DNA of 64,000 bases from Massilia sp. 9I (lineage in GTDB: Bacteria > Pseudomonadota > Gammaproteobacteria > Burkholderiales > Burkholderiaceae_D). Shown in pieces: positions 3,195-42,426 of the stretch (positions within the stretch are counted from its first letter, which is position 1; the number at the start of each line of letters is the position of its first letter). The stretch covers positions 3,377,617 through 3,441,616 of the forward strand of contig NZ_LR733275.1 of the NCBI RefSeq assembly GCF_902506415.1, in the 5' to 3' direction. The notes below the pieces were generated by a model. That model had not been told where the DNA came from. It saw nothing but the letters and a program-made list of their open reading frames with translations, and did not search any database. The position numbers and the translations under genes are program-made.

Positions 3195-3902
3195 TCAAAC
3201 GCCGAGCAGCTCGGTGAGGACCGGCATCCTGCTGTCCAGTTCGCGGGCCGCGATGGTTTCCACCACCTGGCCGTGCTCGACCACGTAGAAGCGGTCCGCC
3301 AGCGGCGCGGCGAAGCGGAAGTTCTGTTCGACCATGACGATGGTGTAGCCCCTGGCTTTCAAGCTCATGATGGTGCGCGCCAGGCTCTGCACGATGACCG
3401 GCGCCAGGCCTTCGGAAATCTCGTCCAGCAGCAGCAGGCGCGCGCCGGTGCGCAGGATGCGGGCGACAGCCAGCATCTGCTGCTCGCCGCCGGACAGGCG
3501 CGTGCCCTGGCTGTGGCGGCGCTCGTAGAGGTTGGGGAACATCGCGTAGATCTCGTCGAGGCTCAATCCCTTCCCTGCCCCCTTCAGTTGCGGCGGCAGC
3601 AGCAGGTTTTCCTCTGCCGACAGCGAGGAAAAAATGCCGCGTTCTTCCGGGCAGTAGCCGATGCCGAGGTGCGCAATCCGGTGCGTCGGCAGGCCGATCG
3701 ATTCGATGCCATTGACCTGGATGGAACCGCTGCGCCGGCCCGTCAGGCCCATGATGGCGCGCAGCAGCGTGGTCCTCCCGGCGCCATTGCGGCCGAGCAG
3801 GGTCACGACTTCGCCCGGCGCCACGTCCAGGCTGATGCCGTGCAGGATGTGCGATTCGCCATACCAGGCGTGCAGGTCCTTGATCTCGAGCGCAAGGGTC
3901 AT
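3195..3902 (-). CDS. livF: Branched-chain amino acid ABC transporter ATP-binding protein LivF
   Basis: This is one of the two cytoplasmic ATPases that power the Liv importer; 235 residues is the usual length. The signature LSGGEQQMLAVARIL and Walker B LLLLDEISEGL are intact. The Walker A loop reads GRNGAGRTT (about residues 37-45), so the usual catalytic lysine is arginine (codon AGG, verified from the bases). The ATG overlaps the livG stop by 4 bp. The arginine either marks a lineage variant or weakens this ATP site; LivG keeps its lysine. Confidence 0.9.
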   Translation of the reverse strand: MTLALEIKDLHAWYGESHILHGISLDVAPGEVVTLLGRNGAGRTTLLRAIMGLTGRRSGSIQVNGIESIGLPTHRIAHLGIGYCPEERGIFSSLSAEENLLLPPQLKGAGKGLSLDEIYAMFPNLYERRHSQGTRLSGGEQQMLAVARILRTGARLLLLDEISEGLAPVIVQSLARTIMSLKARGYTIVMVEQNFRFAAPLADRFYVVEHGQVVETIAARELDSRMPVLTELLGV

Positions 3903-4833: not shown

Positions 4834-6468
4834 CTAAGCTTGCGCCTGGTGCTGCGCGAGGATGTCCTTCGCCGCCTTCTCGGCAATCATGATGGTCGGC
4901 GAATTCGTATTGCCCGAGGTGATGAAGGGCATGATCGAGGCGTCCACCACGCGCAGTTTCCCGATGCCGCGCACGCGTAGTCGGCTGTCGACGACCGCCA
5001 GCGGATCATCGCTGCGTCCCATGCGGCAAGTGCCGACCGGATGAAAAATCGTGGTGCCGACCAGCCCCGCCGCCTGGGCAAGTTCTTCCTCGGTCTGGTA
5101 CTGCGGGCCCGGCATGAACTCTTCCGGACGGTACTTCGCCAGGGCTGGCGCGGCCACGATGCGGCGCGTCAGAGCCAGCGCCGCGGCGGCTGTCTTGCGG
5201 TCCGCGTCGGTGCTCAGGTAGTTCGGCGTGATCTTCGGCGGCGCATAGCTGTCGCTCGACGCGATGCGTACATGCCCGCGCGAGGTCGGCTGCAGGTTGC
5301 ACACGCTGGCCGTGAAGGCCGGGAAGCGGTGCAGGGGGTCGCCGAACTTGTCCAGCGACACCGGCTGCACGTGGTATTGCAGGTTCGGAGACGGCAAGTC
5401 CGGCGAAGAACGGGCGAAGGCGCCCAGCTGGGACGGCGCCATCGACATCGGACCGCTCTGGAACAGGGCGTATTCGAGCCCGATCAGGGTTTTGCCGAAC
5501 CAGTTGGTGGCGCGCGTGTTCAGGGTCGGCACGCCCTCTACCCTGAAAATCATGCGCAGCTGCAGGTGGTCCTGCAGGTTGGCGCCGATGCCCGGCACCT
5601 CCGCCACGGGCTCGATGCCGTGGCGCTGCAGTTCTTCCGCAGCCCCAATGCCGGACAGCTGCAGGATCTGGGGCGAACCCACCGCCCCCGCCGCCAGCAG
5701 GGTTTCGCGCTGCGCAATCGCGCTGTACATCCGGCCGCCGCCGCTGAACTGGACACCGGTGCAAACTTTCCCCTGCGGCGTGTCCTCAAACAGCAGACAC
5801 TCGACGTGGCAACCAGTCATGATCGTCAGGTTGGGACGTTTCGCCGCCGGCTTCAGGAAGGCTTTCGCCGTATTCAGGCGGATGCCGCGCCGCTGGTTGA
5901 CCTCGAAATAGGCAGAGCCTTCTCCCAGGCCGGCATTCAAATCGTCGATCTTCGGAATACCGGTCTCGGCCGCGGCTTCGCGGAAGGCATCCAGGATCTT
6001 CCACGACAGGCGCTGCTGTTCCACGCGCCACTCGCCGCCGGCGCCGTGCAGTTCGCTCGCGCCCAGGTAATGGTCTTCGCTACGTTTGAAGAGCGGCAGC
6101 ACCTGCTCCCAGCGCCAGGAATCGTCTCCCGAAACCTCGGCCCAACGCTCGTAATCCGCCGGCTGGCCACGCATGTAGATCATGCCGTTGATCGACGAGC
6201 TACCGCCCAGCACCTTGCCCCGCGGGTAGATCAGCGCCCGCCCGTTCAGGCTTGGCTCAGCCTCGGTACGGAACAGCCAGTCCGTGCGCGGATTGCCGAT
6301 GCAATGCAGGTAGCCGACCGGGATATGGATCCACATGTAGTCGTCGCGACCGCCCGCCTCGATCAGCAAGACCTCGATGTCCGGATGACGCGTCAGCCGG
6401 TTCGCCAGTACGCAGCCCGACGTGCCGCCGCCAACGATGATGTAGTCATACTCGCCTGCCGATTCCAA
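4834..6468 (-). CDS. GMC family FAD-dependent oxidoreductase (choline dehydrogenase-like)
   Basis: This is an FAD enzyme of the glucose-methanol-choline family that oxidises an alcohol substrate. The N-terminal Rossmann motif is DYIIVGGGTSGCVLANRL. The PROSITE-type signature GGSSSINGMIYMRG lies near residue 85, and the active-site region GTTIFHPVGTCRMG and SGNTNSPTIMIAEKA close the C-terminus. I prefer a TTG start at 6468 (protein beginning ESAGEYDY), which puts the FAD motif near the N-terminus as usual; a TTG at 6504 would add 12 residues. It stands alone downstream of the origin-like region. The substrate is unknown, and choline is not proven because betB/betI are absent. Confidence 0.87.
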   Translation of the reverse strand: MESAGEYDYIIVGGGTSGCVLANRLTRHPDIEVLLIEAGGRDDYMWIHIPVGYLHCIGNPRTDWLFRTEAEPSLNGRALIYPRGKVLGGSSSINGMIYMRGQPADYERWAEVSGDDSWRWEQVLPLFKRSEDHYLGASELHGAGGEWRVEQQRLSWKILDAFREAAAETGIPKIDDLNAGLGEGSAYFEVNQRRGIRLNTAKAFLKPAAKRPNLTIMTGCHVECLLFEDTPQGKVCTGVQFSGGGRMYSAIAQRETLLAAGAVGSPQILQLSGIGAAEELQRHGIEPVAEVPGIGANLQDHLQLRMIFRVEGVPTLNTRATNWFGKTLIGLEYALFQSGPMSMAPSQLGAFARSSPDLPSPNLQYHVQPVSLDKFGDPLHRFPAFTASVCNLQPTSRGHVRIASSDSYAPPKITPNYLSTDADRKTAAAALALTRRIVAAPALAKYRPEEFMPGPQYQTEEELAQAAGLVGTTIFHPVGTCRMGRSDDPLAVVDSRLRVRGIGKLRVVDASIMPFITSGNTNSPTIMIAEKAAKDILAQHQAQA

Positions 6469-6650
6469 GGCTAGCGTTCCCGAACGACGCCAACACCGCC
6501 GCAATCAAAGCCGGCACACGGAGGCAAGCCGCCGTCCTCCGGCTCACCTGGCATGGGCTTACGGGACAGCGCGTCGAGATCCACAAGGCCTCCGTTTGTC
6601 ATTCGTTGAGGCAAGCTTACCAGATCGTAAACGGAAGTCTAGAGCCCATC

Positions 6651-6880
6651 TGTGGATAACCCTCTTGATATCCACAGGTCTGATTTGTGCAGAACCGGGG
6701 GTGTTTTCGGGTAGTCAAAATGTTGTCCAGTTTTTCCGTCTCCTCCACGCGCCAGTGGTGCACCGCTTTATCCGAACAGTAAGTTGATGATTTCTCGGGC
6801 GTTAACCGCTTTGTCCACAGACGAGGTGCACCGTTAACCACTACTACTATCCTTGTATACAAACTTTGTTTGTAAACCCT
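6651..6880. repeat. Origin-like module, copy 1
   Basis: Boxes seen are TGTGGATAA (6651-6659), ATATCCACA (6668-6676) and TTGTCCACA (6811-6819). The trinucleotide run ACTACTACTAT spans about 6840-6850. It is followed by TTGTATACAAAC and a TTTGTTTGTAAAC stretch. GTTAAC-type sequences flank the third box. Confidence 0.6.
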
Positions 6881-7159
6881 GCAGATCTTTTCTGAAATTT
6901 TTTTTGACCGTCGTCGCAGCAAACCGACAAGCCTGCGGAGGATCGCCATACGAGCACTTGCAAGCTCCACGTCGCTGCTTCGCTGCCAGTTCCAACGTGC
7001 GAACATCCTGGCCGGCAAGCTTCTCCAAAACTGTCGACCACGACTTCGCTGCCTCGTCATCGCATCTTGGCGAGCACTTCGGTCATCGAATCCCTGCTGG
7101 CTGATCGCACTGCGCGTTCGGGCTGCACACGCGTCAGCACATCTGGAAGCTTGGTCAGC

Positions 7160-7390
7160 TGTGGAAAACCTCTGGGATATCCACAGGATCGAATGTGCAG
7201 AACAGCTCCTTAAGCTGGTAAGCCCAAAATCTGTCCAAGTTTCCTCCAGTTCAAACACAAGTCTTGTACAGCGCCTTAACGCAAGCGTAACCATTGAGCT
7301 TGTGGAGAAAATTGCTCTTATCCACAGAAGGATGTGCGTTTACTATTACTACCAGTTTGTATACAAACTTGTTTACTACAACAACAAAAC
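7160..7390. repeat. Origin-like module, copy 2
   Basis: Boxes are TGTGGAAAA (7160-7168), ATATCCACA (7177-7185) and a perfect TTATCCACA (7318-7326). The run TTTACTATTACTACC follows at 7339-7353, then the 14-bp palindrome GTTTGTATACAAAC (7355-7368) and GTTTACTAC. This is the best-preserved copy. Confidence 0.65.
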
Positions 7391-7557
7391 CAACAACGCG
7401 TCGAAGCTGCCTTCACTGCCAACCCGGAACGTCGACAAAACGGATCACCGCATCCAGAACCGGTCGCTATCACATCACCTGGAAGCTGCCTTTCACTCCC
7501 GGCAGCTGGCTGAACTACCTGCAAAACTGCCTTTTCAGCATTTCTTGACAGCTCGGC

Positions 7558-7795
7558 TGTGGAAAAGCCGAGGTATATCCACAGGATCGGATGTGCAGAA
7601 CACGGCAATTCCTAGGCTTACTGAAATCTGTCCAAGTTTCGTGCAAGCTCCACACAAGGTTTGTGCAGCCGGTAAACGCGACTGCAAGTCATTGATGCTG
7701 TGGAGTAAACGCGACTTATCAACAGAAGAGCTCACGTTTACTATCTACTATCAGATTTATATATACGTCTTAGTTAACTAATACCGTGGAAGCTT
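7558..7795. repeat. Origin-like module, copy 3
   Basis: Boxes are TGTGGAAAA (7558-7566), ATATCCACA (7575-7583) and TTATCAACA (7716-7724). The run TTTACTATCTACTATC follows at 7737-7752. It ends in an AT-rich patch (ATTTATATATACG, then TTAGTTAACTAATAC), where the palindrome of the other copies has decayed. Confidence 0.6.
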
Positions 7796-7813
7796 CGCAG
7801 CACTGGAAAGCCG

Positions 7814-7846
7814 GAAACAGGCCAAAAAACGCGGTTTCTCTGGCCT
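7814..7846 (+). promoter_or_regulatory. Interleaved inverted repeats in the leader of the aac(6')-like gene
   Basis: GAAAC (7814-7818) can pair with GTTTC (7834-7838), and AGGCCA (7819-7824) can pair with TGGCCT (7841-7846). The two stems interleave, so they are mutually exclusive or form a pseudoknot. They lie 22 bases before a short leader ORF. A regulatory role is inference. Confidence 0.35.
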
Positions 7847-7867
7847 CTCGCTGGTAAGACAAGCAAA

Positions 7868-7903
7868 ATGAACACTCATCCGTACGAAAAAACTCACGAA
7901 TGA
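7868..7903 (+). CDS. Possible 11-codon leader peptide upstream of the aminoglycoside acetyltransferase
   Basis: The ATG at 7868 encodes MNTHPYEKTHE and stops at TGA 7901-7903. The stop overlaps the ATG of the acetyltransferase (7900) as ATGA. Such coupling means translation of the leader would deliver ribosomes to the resistance gene, whose own ribosome site is weak. The leader's own Shine-Dalgarno is also weak. A chance mini-ORF cannot be excluded. Confidence 0.35.
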   Translation: MNTHPYEKTHE

Positions 7904-8343
7904 GCTCGATCAAACCCTGTACAAGTACTGAACAAGCCGGCTGGCTGCAGCTGCGCATGGCCTTGTGGCCTGAAGATCCCGCTGAACACCTGACCGAAAT
8001 GCAGGAGCTGTGTGAACAACCCGGCCGTTATGCACAGTTCATTGCCTTCTCAAGCACTGGAGAGCCCCAGGGACTGGTCGAAGTCGCGCTGCGCAGCGAT
8101 TACGTGAACGGCACCGAGTCCTCGCCTGTCGGCTTCCTGGAAGGCTTGTACGTCGATCCGGCTTCCAGGCATCAGGGCATTGCCGCCCTGCTCGTCAAAA
8201 CTGCCGAACAATGGGTCAGAGAACAAGGCTGCACCGAGATGGCATCCGATGCATTGCTCGACAATACGGCCAGCCATGCCATGCACCAGGCCCTCGGATT
8301 CGAAGAAACTGAGCGCGTGGTCTACTTCCGCAAGCTACTTTGA
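7900..8343 (+). CDS. GNAT acetyltransferase, aminoglycoside 6'-N-acetyltransferase AAC(6')-I type
   Basis: This 147-residue cytosolic GNAT enzyme is predicted to transfer acetyl from acetyl-CoA to the 6'-amino group of aminoglycosides. Diagnostic stretches match the chromosomal AAC(6')-I lineage known from Acinetobacter and Serratia. They are YVNGTESSPVGFLEGLYV in the middle, the acetyl-CoA loop SRHQGIAALLV, the segment CTEMASDALLDN, and the tail SHAMHQALGFEETERVVYF. It is preceded by a candidate leader peptide and followed 20 bp later by mtnN on the same strand. Whether it confers resistance or has a different natural amine substrate cannot be told from sequence. Confidence 0.85.
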   Translation: MSSIKPCTSTEQAGWLQLRMALWPEDPAEHLTEMQELCEQPGRYAQFIAFSSTGEPQGLVEVALRSDYVNGTESSPVGFLEGLYVDPASRHQGIAALLVKTAEQWVREQGCTEMASDALLDNTASHAMHQALGFEETERVVYFRKLL

Positions 8344-8363
8344 CAACAAAAAACAGGGAAAAC

Positions 8364-9158
8364 ATGCGACTGGGGATCATCAGCGCGCTGTACGAAGAAC
8401 AGCTGGGGCTCGTGGAGGCCATGGAAGGGCCCGCCAGGCTCATCCATGGCATGCGTGAGTACTGGGCAGGAACACTGTGGGAAATCGACGCTGTGTGCGT
8501 CCTATCGCGAATTGGCAAGGTTGCGGCTGCCATGACAGCCACCACGCTTGTGGAAAAGTTCGGAGTTACCCACATCCTGTTTACCGGCGTGGCCGGTGCA
8601 GGGGATAAAACGGTTCAGGTCGGCGATATCGTGGTCGCAGAAAGCCTGGTCCAGCACGACATGGATGCGAGCCCGCTGTTTCCGCGCTTCGAGGTGCCGC
8701 TGACGGGCCTGACGCACTTCCAGCCCGACCAGCAGCTCTCGCTGCGCCTGTCGCGCGCGGCCCATGACTTCCTCGAGCTGGACTTCCTGGATGCCATCAA
8801 TGAGGGAGAACGGCAGGAATTCCGCCTGGCGCAGCCGCGCGTGCACCGCGGCCTGGTGGCGAGCGGCGACCAGTTCATGAACGACCGCGAACATTTGAAC
8901 GCCTTGAACGCCGCTCTTCCCGGCCTGGTGGCGGTGGAAATGGAAGGCGCCGCGGTGGCGCAGGTGTGCTATGAGCTCGGCGTGCCCTGCGCCGTGATTC
9001 GCACCGTGTCCGACAACGCCAATGAAAACGCGGCCACCGATTTCATGCGATTCGTGAAATCGGTGGCCGCGCAGTATGCCTTCCACATCACCCGGCGCCT
9101 GTGCCGGGATCTGAAAGACGCGCCGTTTCAGCCAAGGAGCGATTCGGCTGGTACGTAG
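8364..9158 (+). CDS. mtnN: 5'-methylthioadenosine/S-adenosylhomocysteine nucleosidase
   Basis: This enzyme cleaves methylthioadenosine and S-adenosylhomocysteine to adenine and the thioribose sugar, for methionine salvage and methyl-cycle clean-up. I chose the ATG at 8364 (MRLGIISALYEEQ) because it follows AGGGAA and places the catalytic Glu pair (YEEQ) at residues 10-11. The motifs FTGVAGAGD, VEMEGAAVAQVC and the catalytic Asp in TVSDNANE are present. About 264 residues is slightly longer than the typical 230. Its last 31 bp overlap the 3' end of ald on the other strand. Confidence 0.9.
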   Translation: MRLGIISALYEEQLGLVEAMEGPARLIHGMREYWAGTLWEIDAVCVLSRIGKVAAAMTATTLVEKFGVTHILFTGVAGAGDKTVQVGDIVVAESLVQHDMDASPLFPRFEVPLTGLTHFQPDQQLSLRLSRAAHDFLELDFLDAINEGERQEFRLAQPRVHRGLVASGDQFMNDREHLNALNAALPGLVAVEMEGAAVAQVCYELGVPCAVIRTVSDNANENAATDFMRFVKSVAAQYAFHITRRLCRDLKDAPFQPRSDSAGT

Positions 9159-27871: not shown

Positions 27872-28525
27872 TCACTTAAGCGACAGGGCACTGCCTGTCT
27901 TCAGCGCCTTTAGCAGGCATTCGATGCAGACGTCTCGTGGCAGGCGCGGAAGCGGATAGTCCAGCTTGGCGGGACCGATAAAGCTCTTCTTCCCTGCGTG
28001 GACCTTGATTTTTCCTAGGCACTGGACGGTAATATTCCCGCCTTCGATCGTGATGTTGGCGCCGCTGGCAGTCGATAGTCGGATGCTTTTCGCGGCAGCC
28101 CAGTCGGTGTGGCCGTTCGCGCTGATCACGTTGACCTCATCGCGCGCCTGGATGCTCGCGGTGTCGCGCACCGTCTGGAAGTCGTTCGCATCTTTTGCAG
28201 CGATCAGCTGCAAGCCGACGTTATTTTCCCCCGCCTTCATGGCGCCGCCGAGGATGCCGATGGCCTGGCCCGTATGCAGCCGCATCTGGCCGCCGGTGAC
28301 GAATTGGATGTCTTGGTCGCTCAGGATCGTCGCCGTTTCCCCGTTGGCCAATTGCACGCTTTGGCCGGCACTCGCCTCAAGGCCTGCCTGGGCGGAGATC
28401 GCGATGATGGCGTCGCTCGTGTGCGGCAGCTTGCCTGCAGCAGGGCTGGTCAGCTTGTCCGCCGCATCAGCTTTGGCTGACTCGATATCTTGAGCGCTGA
28501 CCATTCCCGATGCTGCGGTCAGCAA
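27872..28525 (-). pseudogene. C-terminal (DUF2345) fragment of a frameshifted VgrG
   Basis: This frame encodes about 217 residues of the VgrG C-terminal domain. SGMVSAQDIESAKADAADK is followed by AISAQAGLEASAGQSVQLANGET, NVISANGHTDWAAAKSI and ANITIEGGNITVQCLGKI, all typical of DUF2345. It has no credible start of its own. The residues PFQALLT just upstream are in this frame and continue naturally from the end of the preceding VgrG fragment. A one-base shift near 28525-28560 separates the two. It is either a true pseudogene, a base-call error, or a rare recoding site. Confidence 0.75.
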
Positions 28526-30729
28526 TGCTTGGAAAGGGCTGCTGTGGCATTGAGCAGGCTCCCTCCCTGTGCCTGCGTACCGGCGTGGGACGCGAGGGCG
28601 ACGGTCTGGTGCGTGGTGGCGGCATTGCTGAGCACCACGCCCAGTTTGTTACCCTGCTTCAGCAGCGCGACCCCTGCCTCGTTGTCACCCACTGGATCGC
28701 GCGCGTCCGCGTGATGGTGAATCTTGTAGCTGGTCATGCGCAAGCCGGCACCGGCGCGGATGGCGCCGTAGGCATCGGTGCGCAACTCTGCACCGCTGCC
28801 ACGGAAACTGCCCCGATAGTTATCGGCGGCGTGAATTAGATGGCCTAGATTCAGTTCGCTGGCAGCGTACGATCTCTTGAGTTGTACTCGCCCCTGTGCA
28901 TCGGTGTCATCGAACAAGAGCTGGTTGTATCCCGAGCCGCCAAACTCTTTGCTCCGCACCCCCCACTGGGCCCCGCCATTATGGTGGCCTGCGCTGTCGC
29001 CGGAAGCGCCGTGCCACACCGGGCTGTTGCCGCCCGCGAGATTGCCTTGTGCTGAAGGCGCATGGTCATGTGCCGTAGCGAAGCAAGAAATGTCGTTCTC
29101 CCGGTCTCGGCGCCCTCCTGGTGTTCGCACAACGCCGCCTTCGCCCTGCCCGTTATACAAAGCGCCGACAATAATCGGGCGGTCGATATCGCCTTCCAGG
29201 AACTTCACCAGAACTTCAGTTCCAATACGCGGCAAGAACTGAAAGCCCATGCCACCGCCGGCGGATCGTTGCGCTACACGAACCCAGCAGCTTGCTGTGC
29301 ATTCCTGCCAATGGAAGCGAATCCGCACGCGGCCAAGCTGGTCACAATACAACTCATCGGCGCCGTTGGGGCTGTCGTTGCCATCGGTGCCAATGACGAT
29401 TGCGGTTTGCGAGTCGAGCGCGGTAGGGCGGGTACGGCTTCGTCCATCGGTGCCGGGCAACTGTGGGCGCCAGATGACGTCAGCTTTTATCGCTTCAAAG
29501 GAGTTTGCATACCCGGTTTTCCTGGCCTGCTCGACTGCTAGCGAAAAATCGGCCGGCTCGTTGTAGCGAACGATTTCTTGCAGCAATTCCGGGATGGGGC
29601 CGAACAGTTCCGCTAATGCGTGCCGTGCCGGCGGCGGCATATTGTTCACGCCGACGCTAACCACGCGAAGCACCGTGAATGCGGGCGCATCGCCGAGGTG
29701 CTTCAAAGGGGTGTCGAGAACCGTCAAACGTGTACCGGCTCGCAGGGTACGCAAGGTTGAGTTGCCGCTCCACATTTGCGTGCGTGCTTCACGTTCTTGC
29801 ATTTGAATATCTGCGTAGCGTCGGGCCTGATCGGGAGTGGCGAAAGCATATTGTCCAGGCACGTCGAACGACTCAAGAGGTGGTAGCCTTCTGGCGTTTT
29901 GCAGGAGAGACGGCGAGCTCGCGGCTGTCACTTTCTTCGTTTTATAGTCATAACTGAGCACTGTAGATAGGGATGCACCCAAGGAACGTTTCATCCGTAA
30001 CGTCTGCACAGTATCCTGGCCTTCGCAAGCATGCGCACCGTGAAATCGGATACCACCGCAGGCTTCGCTACTGGGATCTTCTGGAATTGCCGTTAGTTGA
30101 GTGCTGTTTGCGAACAGCACAGCAGTCAACCCGTCCTCGCCCTGCTCAAAACGCCAGGCGAGGCCTTCCTCGGTCAACAACCTTTGGACGAAGTCCAAGT
30201 CAGACTCCCGGTACTGGCAGCAGTAGCTGCGCGGCACCGCGTCGGCCATGAAGGACCTCACCTCGTCACTCCAACGCCATCGTGCCGGCGGCAAATACGA
30301 CTTGAATACCGAGTCGATGATGTCAATGATGGTCGTGTCCTGCCATACCCGGCAGTTGCGCACTTGGCTCAAACGCCACAGCCATGGAGAAAGCCGCAAG
30401 CGATAGCGCGCAAATCCAACGTCGCTGCCCAGCATCGCAATCTCGGTGACGTCGCCTGAAAAACAGATGCGGCTGCCACTGGCCAGGGTCACTTCCAGGG
30501 CAGCGTGTTGTCCGAGCAGCGGTTCGAGCGGAACATGTGCATTGGTTGACACCACAATGACATCACGGCCACCGATGCCATGCACCTCCTCGTCTGCGGC
30601 AAAAGCTTCGACTAGCAGGCCCCCTGAAAGGTTGGTGATGTCGTCACGAAAGGTGAGTGCGTACAGTCGAGTTGCACTGGAAAACTGCGTTAATGCGGTA
30701 GTGATCTGTGCAGTCAGGGCTATGCTCAT
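28519..30729 (-). pseudogene. Orphan VgrG (TssI) spike protein, N-terminal part, frame interrupted
   Basis: This fragment covers the gp27/gp5-like VgrG core. Visible are YCCQYRESDLDFVQRLLTEEGLAWRFEQ, the OB-fold region VRIRFHWQ...SCWVRVAQRSAGGGMGFQFLPRIGTEVLVKFLEGDIDRPIIVG, and LLFDDTDAQGRVQLK. It ends prematurely at ATAALSKHC. Beyond that, the DUF2345 domain continues in another frame. I chose an ATG at 30729 (MSIALTAQITTALTQ); 30738 is also possible. It heads a cassette with DUF4123, DUF3304 and Tle1 genes. If the break is real, the spike would lack the domain that carries cargo. Confidence 0.8.
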
Positions 30730-30804
30730 ACATGCCATTAGTTGAGGTAAACCAGGGCTGGACTTCTGACGGTAGAGTTCGTCGCGTGCTCGGGGTGCAC
30801 TCCG

Positions 30805-31072
30805 GCAACCTGAACAGGTTACGAGCTTGCCTGCGCACATTGTTGTTCCTGATCAATCGGCCACTGAAATGTTCGGCTCGTGGCAGGCTAACTAGTGACT
30901 GGGTTTAGACCACCGCGCCAGGTCCAACACCGCCAACGTCGCGGGACAGGCGATGGCGAGGACCTGAAATTATCCGTAGCGTCGGTGGGAATAGGGAGAA
31001 TTTTCCCTAATATTTGTCGCTTAAGGTTCAACAACAAGAACGACCCATCCGGGTCGTTTTTTGTTTTATGGC
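30805..31072. repeat. Duplicated ~260 bp intergenic element, copy B
   Basis: This is the second copy of the 24571-24840 sequence. It lies upstream of the orphan vgrG on the minus strand. On the plus strand it ends in a hairpin, ACGACCC-ATCC-GGGTCGT, followed by a T-run (31039-31062). The conserved blocks before a plus-strand terminator could form a small RNA, or on the minus strand could be a shared promoter or 5' leader. Both are inference. The stretch 31073-31283 beyond it shows no gene. Confidence 0.65.
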
Positions 31073-31283: not shown

Positions 31284-32837
31284 ATGAACGCGTTAGTAAG
31301 AACCGGCATCGCCGGGCTCGACGAGGTACTGCACGGCGGCATTCCCCGCAATAACAACCTGATCGTGGAAGGGCCGCCCGGCTCGGGAAAAACCACATTC
31401 GGACTGGGCTTCATCTACCACGGCGCACTGGACTACGACGAACCGGGCGCCATCGTTTCCTTCGAACTCGATCCGGCCAAGCTGCTGCGCGACGCAGCCG
31501 GCTTCAATTGGGACCTGCAGGGCCTGATCGACCAGGGCCGGATCAAGATCATCCAGACCAGCCCGGCCGTGCTGCTGAGCGAATTCCGCAGCGAGGACGG
31601 CGCCTTCGCCGCCGCCCTCGTCGAGATGGGCGCCAAACGCCTCCTGATCGACGGCCTGACGCCGCTGCGCCTGTATGCGGAGATCAACGACCAGCCCTTC
31701 CGCGAAGACGTGCACCTGCTGATCGAAGGCCTGACGCGCCTGGGCGTGACTACCATGGTGACGGCCGAGCGCGACGAAACCCTGTCCGGCGTGCTGGCGC
31801 ACGAACGCTTCGTCTTCGACACCATCATCTCGCTGTCGCGCGAGCAGGCGCGGCGGCGCGAGAGCCGGCGCCTGACCGTCATGAAGTCGCGCGGCCAGGA
31901 GTACATCGGCGGCGATCACACCATGCGCATCGAACCGCAGGTCGGCGTGCACGTGTACCGCCGCGCCCAGTCGCGCCCGGTGGCCTCGCCCAACCAGCCG
32001 ACCTCGGAACAGCGTCTGTCGACCGGTTCGCCGGCCATCGACAAGATGATGGACGGCGGCATCTACCAGGGCTCGGTGACCCTGGTGAGCGGCATTTCAG
32101 GCACCGGCAAGACGGTGCTGAGCGTCCAGTTCCTGACCAATGTCGTCGCTTCCGGGCGCAAGGGACTCCTGGTGAGCCTGGACGAGCATCCCGCCCAGCT
32201 GATCCGCAACGCCAGGTCGCTCGGCTTCGACCTGCAGAGTCTGGTCGATGCGGGCCAGCTGTTCATCCACTACGAGTCGCCGCTGGAGCTCGAGCTGGAC
32301 GTGCACTTCGACCGCATCGTCAAGCTGGTGGAGCAGGAAGGCATCGACTGCGTCGTGTTCGACTCGATTGCGGTGTATGAAATGACGAGCCGCAACGAAG
32401 TCGCCGACTACCTGTATGCCCTGGCCAGCTTCTTCAAGAACCGGCTGGCGACCACCCTGTTCAACTATGAGAGTCCGGAGCTGCTGGGCGTGTCGCAGAT
32501 CAGCGAGGAACTCAAGGGTTCGCACCTGGTCGACAACATCATCCTGCTCAACTACGTCGAGATTTCCACCGTGCTGCGTCGGGCGCTCGCCGTGCCGAAG
32601 GTGCGCGGCAGCCGCAACCAGCAAATCACACGCGAATACACGATCGGCACGGGCGGGCTGCTGCTGCTCGACGAAACCGAGAGCGATACCAAGGCCGTGC
32701 CGCAACTGCCGTTCTCGTCGTATTACGGCCTGCTGTCGCGTTCCCCTTCGCGCCAGAGCCCTGCAGTCGAGGAAGCGCTCGCCAGCGGCGCTCCCTTGCC
32801 GGACTCGCCGCGCCTACCGCCCGAACCGAACCAGTGA
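31284..32837 (+). CDS. KaiC-like double-domain RecA-superfamily ATPase
   Basis: This 517-residue cytosolic ATPase has two KaiC domains. Domain 1 has Walker A GPPGSGKTT at residues 30-38. Domain 2 has SGISGTGKT at about residues 268-276. KaiC's catalytic glutamate pairs are altered: the first domain reads SFELD where the family has EE, and the second reads SLDEHP. It overlaps the next gene, a histidine kinase, by 4 bp (GTGA), so the two are coupled. No kaiA or kaiB is nearby, so a light-clock role is not implied. Such KaiC/kinase pairs are known in non-cyanobacteria, with poorly defined stress or signalling functions. Confidence 0.87.
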   Translation: MNALVRTGIAGLDEVLHGGIPRNNNLIVEGPPGSGKTTFGLGFIYHGALDYDEPGAIVSFELDPAKLLRDAAGFNWDLQGLIDQGRIKIIQTSPAVLLSEFRSEDGAFAAALVEMGAKRLLIDGLTPLRLYAEINDQPFREDVHLLIEGLTRLGVTTMVTAERDETLSGVLAHERFVFDTIISLSREQARRRESRRLTVMKSRGQEYIGGDHTMRIEPQVGVHVYRRAQSRPVASPNQPTSEQRLSTGSPAIDKMMDGGIYQGSVTLVSGISGTGKTVLSVQFLTNVVASGRKGLLVSLDEHPAQLIRNARSLGFDLQSLVDAGQLFIHYESPLELELDVHFDRIVKLVEQEGIDCVVFDSIAVYEMTSRNEVADYLYALASFFKNRLATTLFNYESPELLGVSQISEELKGSHLVDNIILLNYVEISTVLRRALAVPKVRGSRNQQITREYTIGTGGLLLLDETESDTKAVPQLPFSSYYGLLSRSPSRQSPAVEEALASGAPLPDSPRLPPEPNQ

Positions 32838-37737: not shown

Positions 37738-39138
37738 TTATGCCGGGGGCCGCACCAGGGCGACGCTGCGTAGAATCGGATCTTCGTTGCCGACGCAGAG
37801 CACGGGCGCGCCGCGCTCGAGCGCATAGTGCCGCGCCAGCGCGAGCACCGTCACGAAGGGCACGGCGCCGCAGCTGCCGCTGCCGAGGCCGATGCGAACG
37901 ATGTCATCGGCAGCATCGACTTGCGGAATCGCCGGGGCGCTCAGGCCCATCAGCTCGAGTACGCGGTTGGGCCGATGTGCGGTGTCGGCGACGATCATAT
38001 TGATCTGCGAGATATCCACAGCCGCTTCCTTGCGCACCTGTTCCACCATTTCCAGCAGCCGGGTCGAGTCGGCGCGGCGCGTCTCATCGGCCGAGCTGTC
38101 ACGCCGCCGTTCGCTGATGGGACCCAGCAGCGCGAATTCGGCGCTACAGGATTGCGCCAGCTGCAGGTCCGTCAACAGCAATCCAGCTGCGCCTTCTCCT
38201 GGAATCCGGCCGCGCGCTTGGGAGGACGTGAACAGGGCCGACTGCGCAGCCAAGCGGTCGACGCTTTCCTGTCCGATCAGCGACGCGCAGGCGATGACGA
38301 GTGCTACTTGCCGTGTCCCGGCTGCTGGCTTGGTTGGCATCATTTGCGCCAGTAGTGCGGAGGGCGAGACCTGATCCTGATCGGGCCTGTCCGTAGTGAT
38401 GATGCTCGCTTCCGGCCAGCCATACTGGCTCACGGTATGCTTGAACCACATTGTGACCGCACGCCGAATTTCGATAGCCCAGTCATGCGGCAACATCAGC
38501 GTGAGCTGTAGTGTGGGCGGAGCTCCCTCCGATGGCATCAAATCGCCGGCCGCCAGGCTCCCAAGCTCAGCCGCCACCGCAGTTCCCAGCGTGAGCGCGC
38601 GCCATTGCTCGTCCGATAAGCGAACTTGCAGGCCATGGCCCTCCATCCAATCGGCAATCTCATCCTGCAGCATGTCGTCATGCGCATCCTCACTGCGCGC
38701 GCTCATGACCGGAAATCCATAGTCGTCGACAAGTTCCTTGTCCAGATCCGCACGCGCTTCGTTATCCGCAATGGCGCTGGCTAGCTCGTCTGCTGAGCTG
38801 CCATGTGGAGAACGCAATGCCGTCGCGACGATTGCAAGCAAGGGCGCCGCCACTACGGCATCGGTTCGCGCTGCGGACGAGACGGGCTTTGAGGTAGTAG
38901 CTGGAATAGACGCGGCACGGGCCATAACGGCTTTCTGACTACCCCATAAGGCGAACAATATGCCCACGGGTAGAAAGAGCAGGCCGAGTGCCAGCTCGCC
39001 TGTCCCAGGATCTCGTCCAGTCCGGTGCCAATACCAAAGTGCGATTGCCCAGCAGACGACAAAGGTAGTGATGACGACCGCGGCTATTTTGAACCAGTCG
39101 GCAGACAAGCGTGCCGGTGTTGTTGTAGTTGTTGTCAT
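37738..39138 (-). CDS. T6SS-associated hypothetical protein with thiolase-like C-terminal region
   Basis: This 466-residue protein has two N-terminal transmembrane spans (WFKIAAVVITTFVVCWAIAL, ELALGLLFLPVGILFALWG). Two later segments look like beta-ketoacyl synthase fold pieces: IPGEGAAGLLL, and LGSGSCGAVPFVTVLALARHYALERGAPVLCVG. No active-site Cys-His-His triad was identified, so a catalytic role is doubtful. It lies 9 bp after the PAAR gene in the vgrG operon, a position where such proteins recur beside T6SS spikes. Membrane anchoring and spike association are inference. Confidence 0.6.
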   Translation of the reverse strand: MTTTTTTPARLSADWFKIAAVVITTFVVCWAIALWYWHRTGRDPGTGELALGLLFLPVGILFALWGSQKAVMARAASIPATTSKPVSSAARTDAVVAAPLLAIVATALRSPHGSSADELASAIADNEARADLDKELVDDYGFPVMSARSEDAHDDMLQDEIADWMEGHGLQVRLSDEQWRALTLGTAVAAELGSLAAGDLMPSEGAPPTLQLTLMLPHDWAIEIRRAVTMWFKHTVSQYGWPEASIITTDRPDQDQVSPSALLAQMMPTKPAAGTRQVALVIACASLIGQESVDRLAAQSALFTSSQARGRIPGEGAAGLLLTDLQLAQSCSAEFALLGPISERRRDSSADETRRADSTRLLEMVEQVRKEAAVDISQINMIVADTAHRPNRVLELMGLSAPAIPQVDAADDIVRIGLGSGSCGAVPFVTVLALARHYALERGAPVLCVGNEDPILRSVALVRPPA

Positions 39139-39147
39139 GTCAGTCGC

Positions 39148-39411
39148 TTAGATGTTGTCGATCGTTGCCTGCTGACCGGCGATCAAAGTAGCGCCGCATG
39201 CGGTCTTATCTCCGTGACGTGCCGCAGGTTTGCCGTCGATGATGAGCGTTGAGTCGCCGCTGACGATCGGATTGGAACCATGTTTCGGACATATGGTCTT
39301 GTCGCCCATACGGGCAATGCCAACTCCACCCGTATCGCTGTGTGGAGAAGCTTCCACGACCGAACCGCCGTGAGACGTTTTATCGCCGAGCCTGATCAAT
39401 GGACCTGCCAT
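39148..39411 (-). CDS. PAAR-domain T6SS spike-tip protein
   Basis: This is an 87-residue protein of PAAR-domain length. Repeats of the GDKT motif are visible (LIRLGDKTSHGG, RMGDKTICP, RHGDKTACG), plus the name motif KPAARHGD. Cys and His residues would bind zinc at the cone. It caps the VgrG trimer. It is part of the minus-strand operon downstream of the toxin/immunity genes. Confidence 0.92.
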   Translation of the reverse strand: MAGPLIRLGDKTSHGGSVVEASPHSDTGGVGIARMGDKTICPKHGSNPIVSGDSTLIIDGKPAARHGDKTACGATLIAGQQATIDNI

Positions 39412-39490
39412 AAACCCTCCAGAAAAGATACTAACCTTTTTTTAAAAATGTTTTATGGATGTAGCTCCGTACAAATTCACCAGAATTTAA

Positions 39491-40012
39491 TCAATCACAT
39501 GCCTGTCCAGCTTCCACGAGTTTCCATTTACCTCGTGAAAACTCGAATACACGCTCTTCAACACATGCTTCATTCGGAAAATAATGCAATTTAATAGTGT
39601 TATGTAATACAACGATACTGGCGCTCCTTGCTCGTCCCTGTGCCAGAACCGTTTGAATAAACTGCGTGGTAGCAGTAACTGTACCAGTATCAGGCCGTGG
39701 ATCCCCAGTTCCTTCGGCTTCAACTTTTATCTTTGATTTTGTTGACTTCAGAATTTCACTTACATTGGCATTTGTCGAGGGAGCGCAAAGGAGTATTTCT
39801 AATAGGCGCCATGCTTCACTCTTGTTTGGAACTTTCTCTTTATATAAACTATGTTGAAGATTCATCTTTTCTGCTGGACTGCATGAGTTTGAATCCTCAT
39901 GGCCTTGAACAGAAACAGATATCTCTTCTTTTTCTTGGCCTCTTGCGTTAAGAGAAAATGAAAGTGAAATTATAAATAAGAAACTGGATGCTAATAATTC
40001 AGCAGTTTTCAT
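39491..40012 (-). CDS. Hypothetical secreted protein next to PAAR, possible immunity factor
   Basis: This 173-residue protein has an N-terminal signal-like segment (LLASSFLFIISLSFSLNARG). The mature part is hydrophilic with three cysteines and the region TQFIQTVLAQGRARSASIVVLHNTI. I recognise no family. It is low-GC and lies between the immunity-like gene and PAAR. A periplasmic immunity or accessory role is inference from context. Confidence 0.55.
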   Translation of the reverse strand: MKTAELLASSFLFIISLSFSLNARGQEKEEISVSVQGHEDSNSCSPAEKMNLQHSLYKEKVPNKSEAWRLLEILLCAPSTNANVSEILKSTKSKIKVEAEGTGDPRPDTGTVTATTQFIQTVLAQGRARSASIVVLHNTIKLHYFPNEACVEERVFEFSRGKWKLVEAGQACD

Positions 40013-40065
40013 AACAATTTAGATAGCTCGAGCGAATGTTGGAAGCCGACTCTTGAGTTGAATCT

Positions 40066-41010
40066 CTATTGGACATCGTCCCATTGCCAAATTGTTCGGC
40101 CATACATCGAATTTAAAGAAGGTAGTACCTGTCCTTCGATAAAACGTCTGCGTGAATCTGGATGTGCAGGCGTAAAGTAGAAACCTGTTTTCGGACATTT
40201 TTCACCTTCTGCGACCCTGAACGAATGGTTAGTCCGGCCAGGATTTGCATCAGATGTACGAATATCATCACTGTGTTCTATTAAATACCAGGTGCACTCT
40301 GTTTCTTTGAAAATTTTTTGTTCATCATATTTTTCTCCCGTTCTCGGGTCGAGGAGGTCTTCAGTTCCTATCCACACCTTCGTTAGAGGAGCCATTTCGT
40401 GATGATTGCCCAAAAATTGCGCGCAACAGTTCTCCACATCTGGCACGTATATTCCGGTAACCCTTGTTTGTTCGCCAGAGCGAACATGTACACTTTTATT
40501 CACTCGATAAGTGGAGGGCGATGACAGCACCGAGAATTCTTCGAATTCTTCAGCGTGCGAGGAAAGTTCGATGGAATCCCACCAGGCGTGTTCAGTTATC
40601 GAGATGTTATGTGCCATGGTCATGGCACGATACATCTTGTCATCATATATTTTTTGGTCTTTTTTGTTCATCCAATCTGGACTGTAATCCAATTGGCCTT
40701 TAAAGTCGCTTCTCACGTTATCCGAATAGCCCAGTGCATCTGAGTCACCATGGGTCAGTAAAATAAAAGCTTTATTCAGCTGTTCTAACGTGGATCGAAA
40801 GTTCGGTAGAACTCGGTGGCCCCAGACGATGTCCGCTTGGTCAGGTAGAGATCTAGAGCGATAATTGGGTGCCAATTTGGTCATGTACGCTTCGAGACAT
40901 GACTCAGTATGGATGATCATTTCCTCCCACTTATCACGCATACTTCCAAAGTAATGCGGCGATGAGAATAATTCCAATAGTTTTATTTCTTTATCGTCAA
41001 ATTTTGGCAT
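40066..41010 (-). CDS. Probable immunity protein (Imm71/Imm72-like) of the vgrG toxin cassette
   Basis: This is a 314-residue soluble protein without a signal peptide. Its C-terminal region has CPKTGFYFTPAHPDSRRRFIEGQ and LNSMYGRTIWQWDDVQ, a pattern I associate with the Imm71/Imm72-type immunity proteins of polymorphic toxin loci. That family link is from memory and needs a search. Its ATG overlaps the toxin stop region by 14 bp, the common toxin-then-immunity coupling. Base composition is clearly AT-richer than the flanking T6SS genes, which suggests acquisition. Confidence 0.62.
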   Translation of the reverse strand: MPKFDDKEIKLLELFSSPHYFGSMRDKWEEMIIHTESCLEAYMTKLAPNYRSRSLPDQADIVWGHRVLPNFRSTLEQLNKAFILLTHGDSDALGYSDNVRSDFKGQLDYSPDWMNKKDQKIYDDKMYRAMTMAHNISITEHAWWDSIELSSHAEEFEEFSVLSSPSTYRVNKSVHVRSGEQTRVTGIYVPDVENCCAQFLGNHHEMAPLTKVWIGTEDLLDPRTGEKYDEQKIFKETECTWYLIEHSDDIRTSDANPGRTNHSFRVAEGEKCPKTGFYFTPAHPDSRRRFIEGQVLPSLNSMYGRTIWQWDDVQ

Positions 41011-42406
41011 TTGATTTCTCTTCTACAAAATTATTTTTTAACGTTGGTACGCCGATCATGTCATTTTGGGTGCCGAGTTCGTCATACTTCCAGTTAGTAC
41101 GCATACGTTTGCTGACATGAGATTTTTCCAATTTTGATGGATCTATCACCAGTTGGGTGGCCCCGCCCTCCAGAACATATTTGGAGTCTTTCATCCTTTG
41201 CGAAGCGGTTACTCCTTCCCATACATTTAACCCAGGACCATCCGGTACGGTGTATGTAATATATTCTCCATTCGCATTCCAGTTTGGCCACACTGCAAAC
41301 CGCTTTCGCCAGTCCGACTTGGACTTCAATTTAAGGAATTCTTCCTCACGCATCCAGCAGATGCTATTATCTTTTGAAGTAGGATCGACAATACGGTACA
41401 GCTTGGTTTTTGGTGGAATGATTGAGGGTTTTATTGAATGGAACGTGTCGAAAGCGTTTACGTTAGGCCAATCTTTCTTAGGTGATGGCCGTCTGGTCAA
41501 CGCAGGAAATGGTTCAATTCCTGTATCGCTTACCCAATCTGGTTTCCCGTGCTTTTTGTATGCCTCAACCTCTTCAGCGGGAGAAGAAATTTTCTTGAAG
41601 GCATGCGGATTCACATTGTTAAGGTAAGCACGGTGTGCCATGTCCGCATCAACTTCCAATCGCCGTGCTGTGCAAAGCAGATAGTCTTTGATGGGTTTAA
41701 GCGCATTTGCCAGATGACGATCGGCTCCCTGCCTAACCGAGTCAATGCTGCTGATTAAATTCTGCGCCTTCTTGGAAATTCCGGTGCTTCCCCATCTTTG
41801 GACAAGACCCAACACGCTTTGGGCTGCGCCCACTGCTTCATTTAATGCGGACTTGAGTGCTGAAACATTGAGCTTGGCTGCGACCTGATTGATCTCTTTA
41901 GCCAGCGTCCGATACGGATTGTCCCATTTGAGCGCGACCAGCGTTTTCGCCACTTCTGGCCTTGCCAAAAATTTGTTCAGCTGTGCTATTGAGGCACCCA
42001 CACAGATATCTAGACGAGGTGTGAGGCCACTAGCGGACGCTCCTTTCCTGCAGGCTGCAAACATCACTTTCAAACAACCTTTAAGAAGCGAACCGAGGGC
42101 AGGAAACAATCCGATCAAGGTGAGAACGAGAGAGATCCACGGCCAAGAATTGTCCGACTCGTCGTCGTTGATCTTCTTGCAGTTCGCTACCAGATCGCGT
42201 ATGTCGCAGATCTGGTCGACGAAAGGAATCATCGAAATGATTGTTCCTGTAGCGATTTGGGCTGTACTCGCGTTGTCGTTGAAGTCGCCTTGAAGTACTT
42301 CCCAGATCCATTGAGCTGCTGCCTCGAGATTCTTTCTGCCGCTTTCGAGCCATCCAGCCGGGGCCGATGTAAACCAGGCAAGCGCATTTTCGAAGTCGTC
42401 GTTCAT
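40997..42406 (-). CDS. Putative T6SS effector (toxin) downstream of VgrG
   Basis: This is a 469-residue protein encoded 20 bp after vgrG. Residues ~45-130 contain two hydrophobic helices (IATGTIISMIPFVDQICDI; WPWISLVLTLIGLFPALGSLL). The middle is helical. The C-terminal ~130 residues (KTKLYRIVDPTSKD..., NGEYITYTVPDGPGLNVWEG, LEGGATQLVIDPSKL) look like a compact toxin domain. The R-(ST)-(E/Q) spacing faintly recalls ADP-ribosyltransferase folds, but this is weak. It has no signal peptide. The toxin role rests on position, overlap with an immunity-like gene, and low GC. Confidence 0.6.
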   Translation of the reverse strand: MNDDFENALAWFTSAPAGWLESGRKNLEAAAQWIWEVLQGDFNDNASTAQIATGTIISMIPFVDQICDIRDLVANCKKINDDESDNSWPWISLVLTLIGLFPALGSLLKGCLKVMFAACRKGASASGLTPRLDICVGASIAQLNKFLARPEVAKTLVALKWDNPYRTLAKEINQVAAKLNVSALKSALNEAVGAAQSVLGLVQRWGSTGISKKAQNLISSIDSVRQGADRHLANALKPIKDYLLCTARRLEVDADMAHRAYLNNVNPHAFKKISSPAEEVEAYKKHGKPDWVSDTGIEPFPALTRRPSPKKDWPNVNAFDTFHSIKPSIIPPKTKLYRIVDPTSKDNSICWMREEEFLKLKSKSDWRKRFAVWPNWNANGEYITYTVPDGPGLNVWEGVTASQRMKDSKYVLEGGATQLVIDPSKLEKSHVSKRMRTNWKYDELGTQNDMIGVPTLKNNFVEEKSNAKI

Positions 42407-42426
42407 TCGTGTGAACTCTCGCGTGG

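Follow-up and report, generated by a model that had tools for sequence, protein, structure and literature searches.

The tract at positions 6651 to 7795 is very probably the chromosomal replication origin, oriC, of the genome in which it lies; the tests that bear on this reading were all computational. It forms part of a 64-kb window (the whole stretch of DNA that was analyzed, C7:3377617-3441616 of a 5.51-Mb contig), and dnaA, near which origins are usually sought, is located at 3729798, about 345 kb off. An origin displaced far from dnaA is well supported by these tests. The first-pass annotation of the window had left the choice between an alternative oriC, a dispersed DnaA locus, and a relic. 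Conservation in relatives, parS, the position opposite dif and, less sharply, the polarity of KOPS-like sites spoke for an origin and made the other two readings much less likely. The word "alternative" was dropped because the gap between dnaA and rpmH holds a single DnaA box with one mismatch or less. For want of further good boxes, this gap was itself rejected as the site of the origin.

The tract is built of three imperfect direct repeats of one module, each with a DnaA box, a CTA run, and an AT-rich patch, as had been described from the first reading of the sequence (Table 1). The repeats start 509 and 398 bp apart, and each opens with two facing DnaA boxes (TGTGGAWAA, 8 nt, ATATCCACAGG) whose starts are 17 bp apart. 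This pair had been recognized at the start of each module; a second facing pair in the module's later half (TGTGGAgAA, 8 nt, TTATCCACA) had been overlooked. It follows 141 or 142 bp past the first pair and provides an additional plus-strand DnaA box, at 6811, 7318, and 7716, ahead of the CTA run and the AT-rich patch. Modules 2 and 3 have both boxes of the second pair, and module 1 has retained the plus-strand box and lost the minus-strand box in this genome. The CTA/TTA run begins 13 to 21 nt past the last box and is followed by the AT-rich patch, with TTGTATACAA present in modules 1 and 2. The box-to-CTA spacer, which had been given as 14 to 18 nt, is 21 nt in module 1 and 16 nt in modules 2 and 3, or 13 nt in the latter two when the TTA ahead of the CTA is taken as the opening trio. 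The fixed offsets of 17 and 141 bp suggest that the facing pairs constitute a phased platform for DnaA.

Table 1. Features of the origin tract and its surroundings, in window coordinates
Feature	Position	Strand	Remarks
GMC oxidoreductase gene, choline-dehydrogenase-like	4834-6504	-	left neighbor; marks the conserved site
Module 1, first facing DnaA-box pair	6651-6676		TGTGGATAA at 6651-6659, minus strand; ATATCCACA at 6668-6676, plus strand
Module 1, second DnaA box TTGTCCACA	6811-6819	+	minus-strand partner degenerate in this genome
Module 1, CTACTACTA run and AT-rich patch with TTGTATACAA	6841-6878	+	21 nt from box
Module 2, first facing pair TGTGGAAAA / ATATCCACA	7160-7185		
Module 2, second facing pair TGTGGAGAA / TTATCCACA	7301-7326		141 bp past first pair
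Module 2, trio run TTA-CTA-TTA-CTA and AT-rich patch with TTTGTATACAAA	7340-7385	+	13 nt from box
Module 3, first facing pair TGTGGAAAA / ATATCCACA	7558-7583		
Module 3, second facing pair TGTGGAGTA / TTATCAACA	7699-7724		141 bp past first pair
Module 3, TTACTA-T-CTACTA run and AT-rich patch	7738-7785	+	least stable 40 bp of the 64-kb window
AAC(6')-type acetyltransferase gene	7900-8343	+	between array and MTA-nucleosidase gene; in some relatives only
MTA/SAH nucleosidase gene	8340-9158	+	right neighbor; marks the conserved site
Further facing pair TGTGGAAAA / TTACCCACA, 17-bp offset	8549-8574		inside MTA-nucleosidase gene; recurs in many relatives

In agreement with the first-pass annotation, the tract looks gene-free, because neither of its two open reading frames (6617-7294 on the minus strand and 7161-7781 on the plus strand) matched an NCBIfam family at an E value of 0.001; protein genes inside it were rejected on this ground. 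The statements that dnaA is not among the neighboring genes and that glmU-glmS are about 12 to 14 kb away held equally, with a GMC oxidoreductase gene on one side, AAC(6')-type and MTA-nucleosidase genes on the other, and the starts of glmU and glmS 11.9 and 14.0 kb downstream of 7795. The AAC(6')-type gene has no match at that place in the relatives that lack it, which points to an insertion or a loss beside the predicted origin.

DnaA boxes with at most one mismatch are concentrated in the tract, which has 10 per 1146 nt, compared with 3 in the densest 1146-nt stretch of the window outside 6000 to 8600. The whole window contains 35 such boxes against 4.6 expected, a number reached in 0 of 100 shuffles. 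Among 121 stretches sampled from three genomes, with the array of the third genome (G022) left out, 10 boxes were reached only by the tract and its counterpart in G026, the next value being 7. The G+C content is 49% in the tract and 62.5% in the window. An intergenic cluster of DnaA boxes, one of the criteria for an oriC, is therefore found here.

The order of box, spacer, CTA run, and AT-rich patch, noted at the outset as that of the Bacillus subtilis basal unwinding system (BUS), holds in each module. According to PMC6669920 and PMC8287927, B. subtilis DnaA bound at boxes beside 3'-GAT-5' trios extends as a filament along a single strand and thereby opens the DNA. Like the BUS, the array combines a DnaA box, a spacer, 3'-GAT-5' trios (read as 5'-CTA-3' on the complementary strand), and an AT-rich patch, but differs in having three units in direct repeat, rigidly spaced facing pairs before each of them, and a location that is not beside dnaA. 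It also differs in that modules 1 and 3 miss the strict rule, which is published as a DnaA box, a spacer of 16 nt or less, and at least three tandem trios. Module 2 satisfies this rule with four trios (TTA-CTA-TTA-CTA) after a spacer of 13 nt, likewise the commonest box-trio spacer given in PMC8287927. Module 1 has three in-register CTA trios at 21 nt, and module 3 has only two trios in register, followed by a one-base register slip; neither satisfies it. Over 30 same-genus loci, the rule was satisfied by 20 of 78 terminal units, whose possession of trios is partly circular because they were picked by a CTA-containing pattern, and by 7 of 138 other plus-strand boxes. It discriminates poorly, because random positions satisfy it 14% of the time.

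All three modules include very unstable DNA. The least stable 40 bp of module 1 starts at 6834, and 227 of 63960 window positions (0.36%), in 17 other regions, are less stable; for the AT-rich patch of module 2, this applies to 80 of 63960 positions (0.13%), in 9 other regions. No stretch of the window is less stable than the patch of module 3, from 7742-7743. Unstable AT-rich DNA beside the boxes, a further criterion for an oriC, is thus found in three patches, and regions as unstable as those of modules 1 and 2 exist elsewhere in the window. The "three unwinding units" of the first-pass annotation stand as anatomy, that is, as three box-CTA-AT-rich units, each conserved as itself and each very unstable; only module 2 satisfies the strict BUS rule, and an unwinding function of the units is a prediction.

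A DNA search matched the array in all 36 same-genus relatives searched, with a single matching piece each in G017 and G029, whereas 24 genomes representing other families of the order gave no match. Within the family, 245 genomes were sampled, and the facing-pair pattern occurred in 81 of them, representing 9 of 44 genera, although these matches need not all be this array, since L213 to L215 show no MTA-nucleosidase gene; a reversed control pattern was absent from the same 245 genomes. The first-pass annotation had proposed to search related genomes for the three-module pattern and for its distance from dnaA. Loci were taken from 30 of the 37 genomes with an array match, including the one analyzed here, and 27 of these 30 had three complete modules by a loose rule. 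With a stricter terminal-unit pattern, three units were found in 19 loci, two in 10, and one in 1. Pair-to-pair distances in the range of 120 to 165 bp were 141 bp (43 cases) or 142 bp (19 cases) in 62 of 62 instances among the 30 loci, and a distance of 140 bp was also seen in other genera.

To compare the modules with each other, the 27 loci with exactly three complete modules were used. The nearest neighbor was the same-position module of another genome for 81 of 81 modules, and mean identity was 68.5% between modules at the same position across genomes versus 60.0% between different positions within a genome. The triplication thus predates the sampled genus, and its copies have not been homogenized; it is an old one, each copy of which has been conserved separately.

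The array is found at the same gene site in relatives, between the GMC oxidoreductase and MTA-nucleosidase genes. Among the matches listed, facing pairs occupied this site in contigs of at least Massilia, Telluria, Duganella, Pseudoduganella, and Janthinobacterium. Pair spacings in two loci named Massilia or Telluria (L099 and L102) equaled those of G016 and G007, two genomes of the same genus, which suggests that the window comes from an Oxalobacteraceae bacterium of the Massilia group. Three modules with CTA runs were present in the Janthinobacterium loci L130 and L170, and two modules, up to 3.2 kb apart, in loci of Duganella and Pseudoduganella; CTA runs trail each full module seen in these three genera. 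Undibacterium contigs contained similar pairs, with an MTA-nucleosidase-like match in one of them (L152), and ranged from two first pairs with CTA runs (L152) down to none (L141).

With up to one mismatch allowed, 13 of the 14 genomes searched had parS 4 to 14 kb from the array, and a nearby parS is one of the criteria used here for an oriC. No parS was found elsewhere in the 14 genomes at this threshold, and G255 had none at all; close parS neighbors were counted once for four genomes. In 12 relatives, parS was 4.5 to 13.5 kb from the array versus 274 to 428 kb from dnaA. The single parS of the genome analyzed here, at C7:3374672, lies 2.9 kb beyond the edge of the window, at a distance of 9.6 kb from the first box.

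Allowing up to 3 mismatches, one dif site was found in this genome and one in each of 10 relatives, and dif was also found in 14 of 15 others. Distances to the dif antipode were compared in 18 of 25 relatives, those with the array, dnaA, and dif on one contig, and the genome analyzed here is reported apart. G061 was left out (no dif match, and a single pair without a neighboring MTA-nucleosidase match), as were G104, whose dif is on a separate contig, and five drafts, G001, G002, G005, G007, and G025. The array was closer than dnaA to the antipode in 18 of 18 relatives (medians, 31 versus 347 kb), counting one tie, G265 (150 kb for the array and 151 kb for dnaA), which was left undecided because the sizes used are rounded. 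These sizes were exact in two genomes and otherwise the genome total, plasmids included, rounded to 0.1 Mb. A position opposite dif, another criterion for an oriC, was hence observed in the 18 relatives and is not seen in the assembly analyzed here as it stands. The distance between the array and dnaA ranged from 264 to 519 kb in the same 18 genomes.

A different cluster of DnaA boxes was noticed outside the window, at C7:622.5-623.7 kb (L004:985-1975). It comprises seven co-oriented TGTGGAYAA boxes, several in a palindrome-like CACATTTTTTGTGGACAAAAATGTG setting, and sits between exbB/exbD- and xseA-like genes, which were named by eye. It was matched in its own genome and in 9 of 9 same-genus relatives, some weakly, and is a candidate datA/DARS-like locus.

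This exbB-xseA cluster was also used as a positional marker. In five relatives, it was 1563 to 1773 kb from the array and 1284 to 2163 kb from dnaA, the matches being short and weak in G032, G021, and G011. In G022 it shares the arm of dnaA, whereas the other four relatives have it on the opposite arm. Such a steady distance from the array across arms is what inversions symmetric about the true origin would be expected to leave.

Strand polarity favored the array over dnaA as the switch point in all three genomes, weakly in G022, in line with the criterion that polarity switches at an oriC. For KOPS-like GGGNAGGG sites, placing the switch at the array rather than at dnaA changed the log-likelihood by +51.8 in the genome analyzed here, +9.3 in G026, and +1.9 in G022; for GGGCAGGG, the values were +32.5, +6.3, and +6.2, respectively. 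Far-arm GGGNAGGG sites were on the expected strand in 70 of 73 cases in this genome, whose arms for the test exclude 0 to 1.95 Mb with its anomalous polarity, in 57 of 65 in G026, and in 32 of 36 in G022. The best switch was at 3408 to 3454 kb in this genome, 23 to 70 kb to the right of the array (3385), and at 1130 to 1330 kb in G022, at least 24 kb to the left of the array (1354). In G026, it was at 100 to 290 kb, which includes the array (287), and the KOPS-like sites between the array and dnaA were mixed (14 plus, 19 minus).

Plain GC skew, whose minimum the first-pass annotation had proposed as a test, was weak and noisy in sampled stretches of the three genomes, with no clean minimum, and was dropped as an origin call. 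A k-mer strand scorer was not relied on either, its held-out arm calls being right in only 16 of 18, 11 of 16, and 9 of 12 cases; at this low accuracy, its minimum was at 3.49 Mb in the genome analyzed here, 105 kb from the array, and at 0.27 Mb in G026.

In the window's own assembly, dif and strand polarity do not fit a simple circle. The dif site is only 1.43 Mb from the array, so that dnaA is nearer to the dif antipode (978 kb, versus 1324 kb for the array). Over 0 to 1.72 Mb, the KOPS-like polarity is the opposite of the expected one, and 2752 kb separate the exbB-xseA cluster from the array. Because G026 (one contig) and G022 (two contigs) are without such anomalies, the discrepancy most likely stems from a misjoin or from a large rearrangement of this genome.

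We infer that DnaA binds the tract, that at least one of the three patches opens, and that helicase is loaded there. DnaA would bind the paired boxes of each module, with the plus-strand box of the second pair directed toward the CTA run (3'-GAT-5' on the complementary strand). From the second pair, a DnaA-ATP filament would then extend over the trios and open the adjoining AT-rich patch, as in the B. subtilis BUS. Helicase would be loaded at the opened patch, and two forks would leave, one via glmU-glmS and the other via the parS side. Three such units in direct repeat would be available. That more than one module can open is a tentative proposal, somewhat short of an even chance. We hold equally tentatively the fuller picture of three functional unwinding units in series, kept apart since before the genus diversified, in which DnaA would open up to three patches, helicases would be loaded at more than one, and origin and parS would lie together hundreds of kilobases from dnaA in the clade.

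The number of modules that open may be smaller. With a probability that we place close to evenly balanced, the tract acts as oriC through a single opening module, probably 2 or 3, and the remaining two serve only to collect DnaA or to control timing, much as the distal box subregion does in B. subtilis incC. This is a special case of the oriC reading, and the two probabilities are not exclusive. The 21-nt spacer of module 1 and the register slip of module 3 would be explained, as would the low share of terminal units in relatives that follow the strict BUS rule (20 of 78). The distal box group of B. subtilis, required for origin activity and separate from the trio-adjacent boxes according to PMC6669920, offers a precedent. 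Against a single opening module, every module keeps its box, CTA run, and very unstable patch; each of the 81 modules compared has its closest relative at the same position; and the CTA runs persist after each full module seen in Janthinobacterium, Duganella, and Pseudoduganella.

Readings in which the tract is not the present origin have far less in their favor. The clustered facing boxes, the second, different box cluster between exbB/exbD- and xseA-like genes, and a polarity peak tens of kilobases off the array in two genomes could be reconciled with a datA- or DARS-like locus that titrates or reactivates DnaA beside a different origin. A locus of that type is a box cluster without an unwinding element, off the replichore center; trio runs, unstable patches, a nearby parS, and a position opposite dif are not expected of it. 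The tract has unwinding-type elements and a nearby parS, the array is opposite dif and central in the replichores of relatives, and the dnaA-rpmH gap has only one good box, which makes this reading very unlikely. More improbable still is a relic of a former origin, with replication now beginning elsewhere, for example at dnaA. The decayed elements in modules 1 and 3 and the dif and polarity anomaly of the window's own assembly could be taken as its traces, but the pair spacing of 141 to 142 bp is kept genus-wide, and parS and replichore balance track the array in relatives. The assignment of the Janthinobacterium sp. HH01 origin to dnaA, made from G+C skew and gene position according to PMC3566124, also counts against the oriC reading of the tract.

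Origins away from dnaA are already known. The oriC of Escherichia coli is not adjacent to dnaA (PMC6669920), and PMC9584773 is likewise cited for such origins. The array resembles that of E. coli in its position off dnaA and differs from it in its CTA-type trio runs and in its site between the GMC oxidoreductase and MTA-nucleosidase genes, 264 to 519 kb from dnaA in relatives. In Cupriavidus metallidurans CH34, a related betaproteobacterium, chromosome 1 has a skew switch that is about 90 kb away from dnaA and adjoins a 213-nt region carrying three perfect DnaA boxes (PMC2864759). The likeness of this inferred origin off dnaA to the array is by description only, and the part of PMC2864759 that describes it mentions no repeated modules. 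Also by description only, chromosome 1 of Burkholderia cenocepacia shares DnaA boxes, short repeats, an AT-rich block, and parS, and KOPS and dif were used there as for the array; the authors left the exact origin uncertain (PMC4948915). Bipartite origins, as in B. subtilis and Helicobacter pylori, similarly have more than one DnaA-box group, with the unwinding element in one of two subregions (PMC4285127), but in the array, each of the three modules has one, by anatomy. No paper describing this origin, or unwinding units that are repeated in nature, came up in our literature search; databases of predicted origins, such as DoriC, may list the origin.

Several genomes of this clade are numbered from dnaA, which lies within the first 1.6 kb of G026, G138, G107, G181, and G273, yet the likely origin is hundreds of kilobases away in the 18 relatives. 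With three natural copies of an opening unit, such an origin lends itself to asking whether a single unit suffices, whether the units cooperate, and how many helicases are loaded.

Some minor observations were made along the way. Besides dnaA, contig 1 of G026 has six equal-scoring DnaA-domain matches in frames of 273 amino acids, which are probably copies of the IstB-like ATPase of one IS element, IstB being a guess. Within the window, a VgrG-like gene of a type VI secretion system is located at 28519-30840, and a KaiC-like ATPase gene, which scores under the KaiC model cutoff, at 31284-32837. The region from 38000 to 43000 is low in G+C, down to 45% compared with 62.5% for the window, and is probably acquired DNA.
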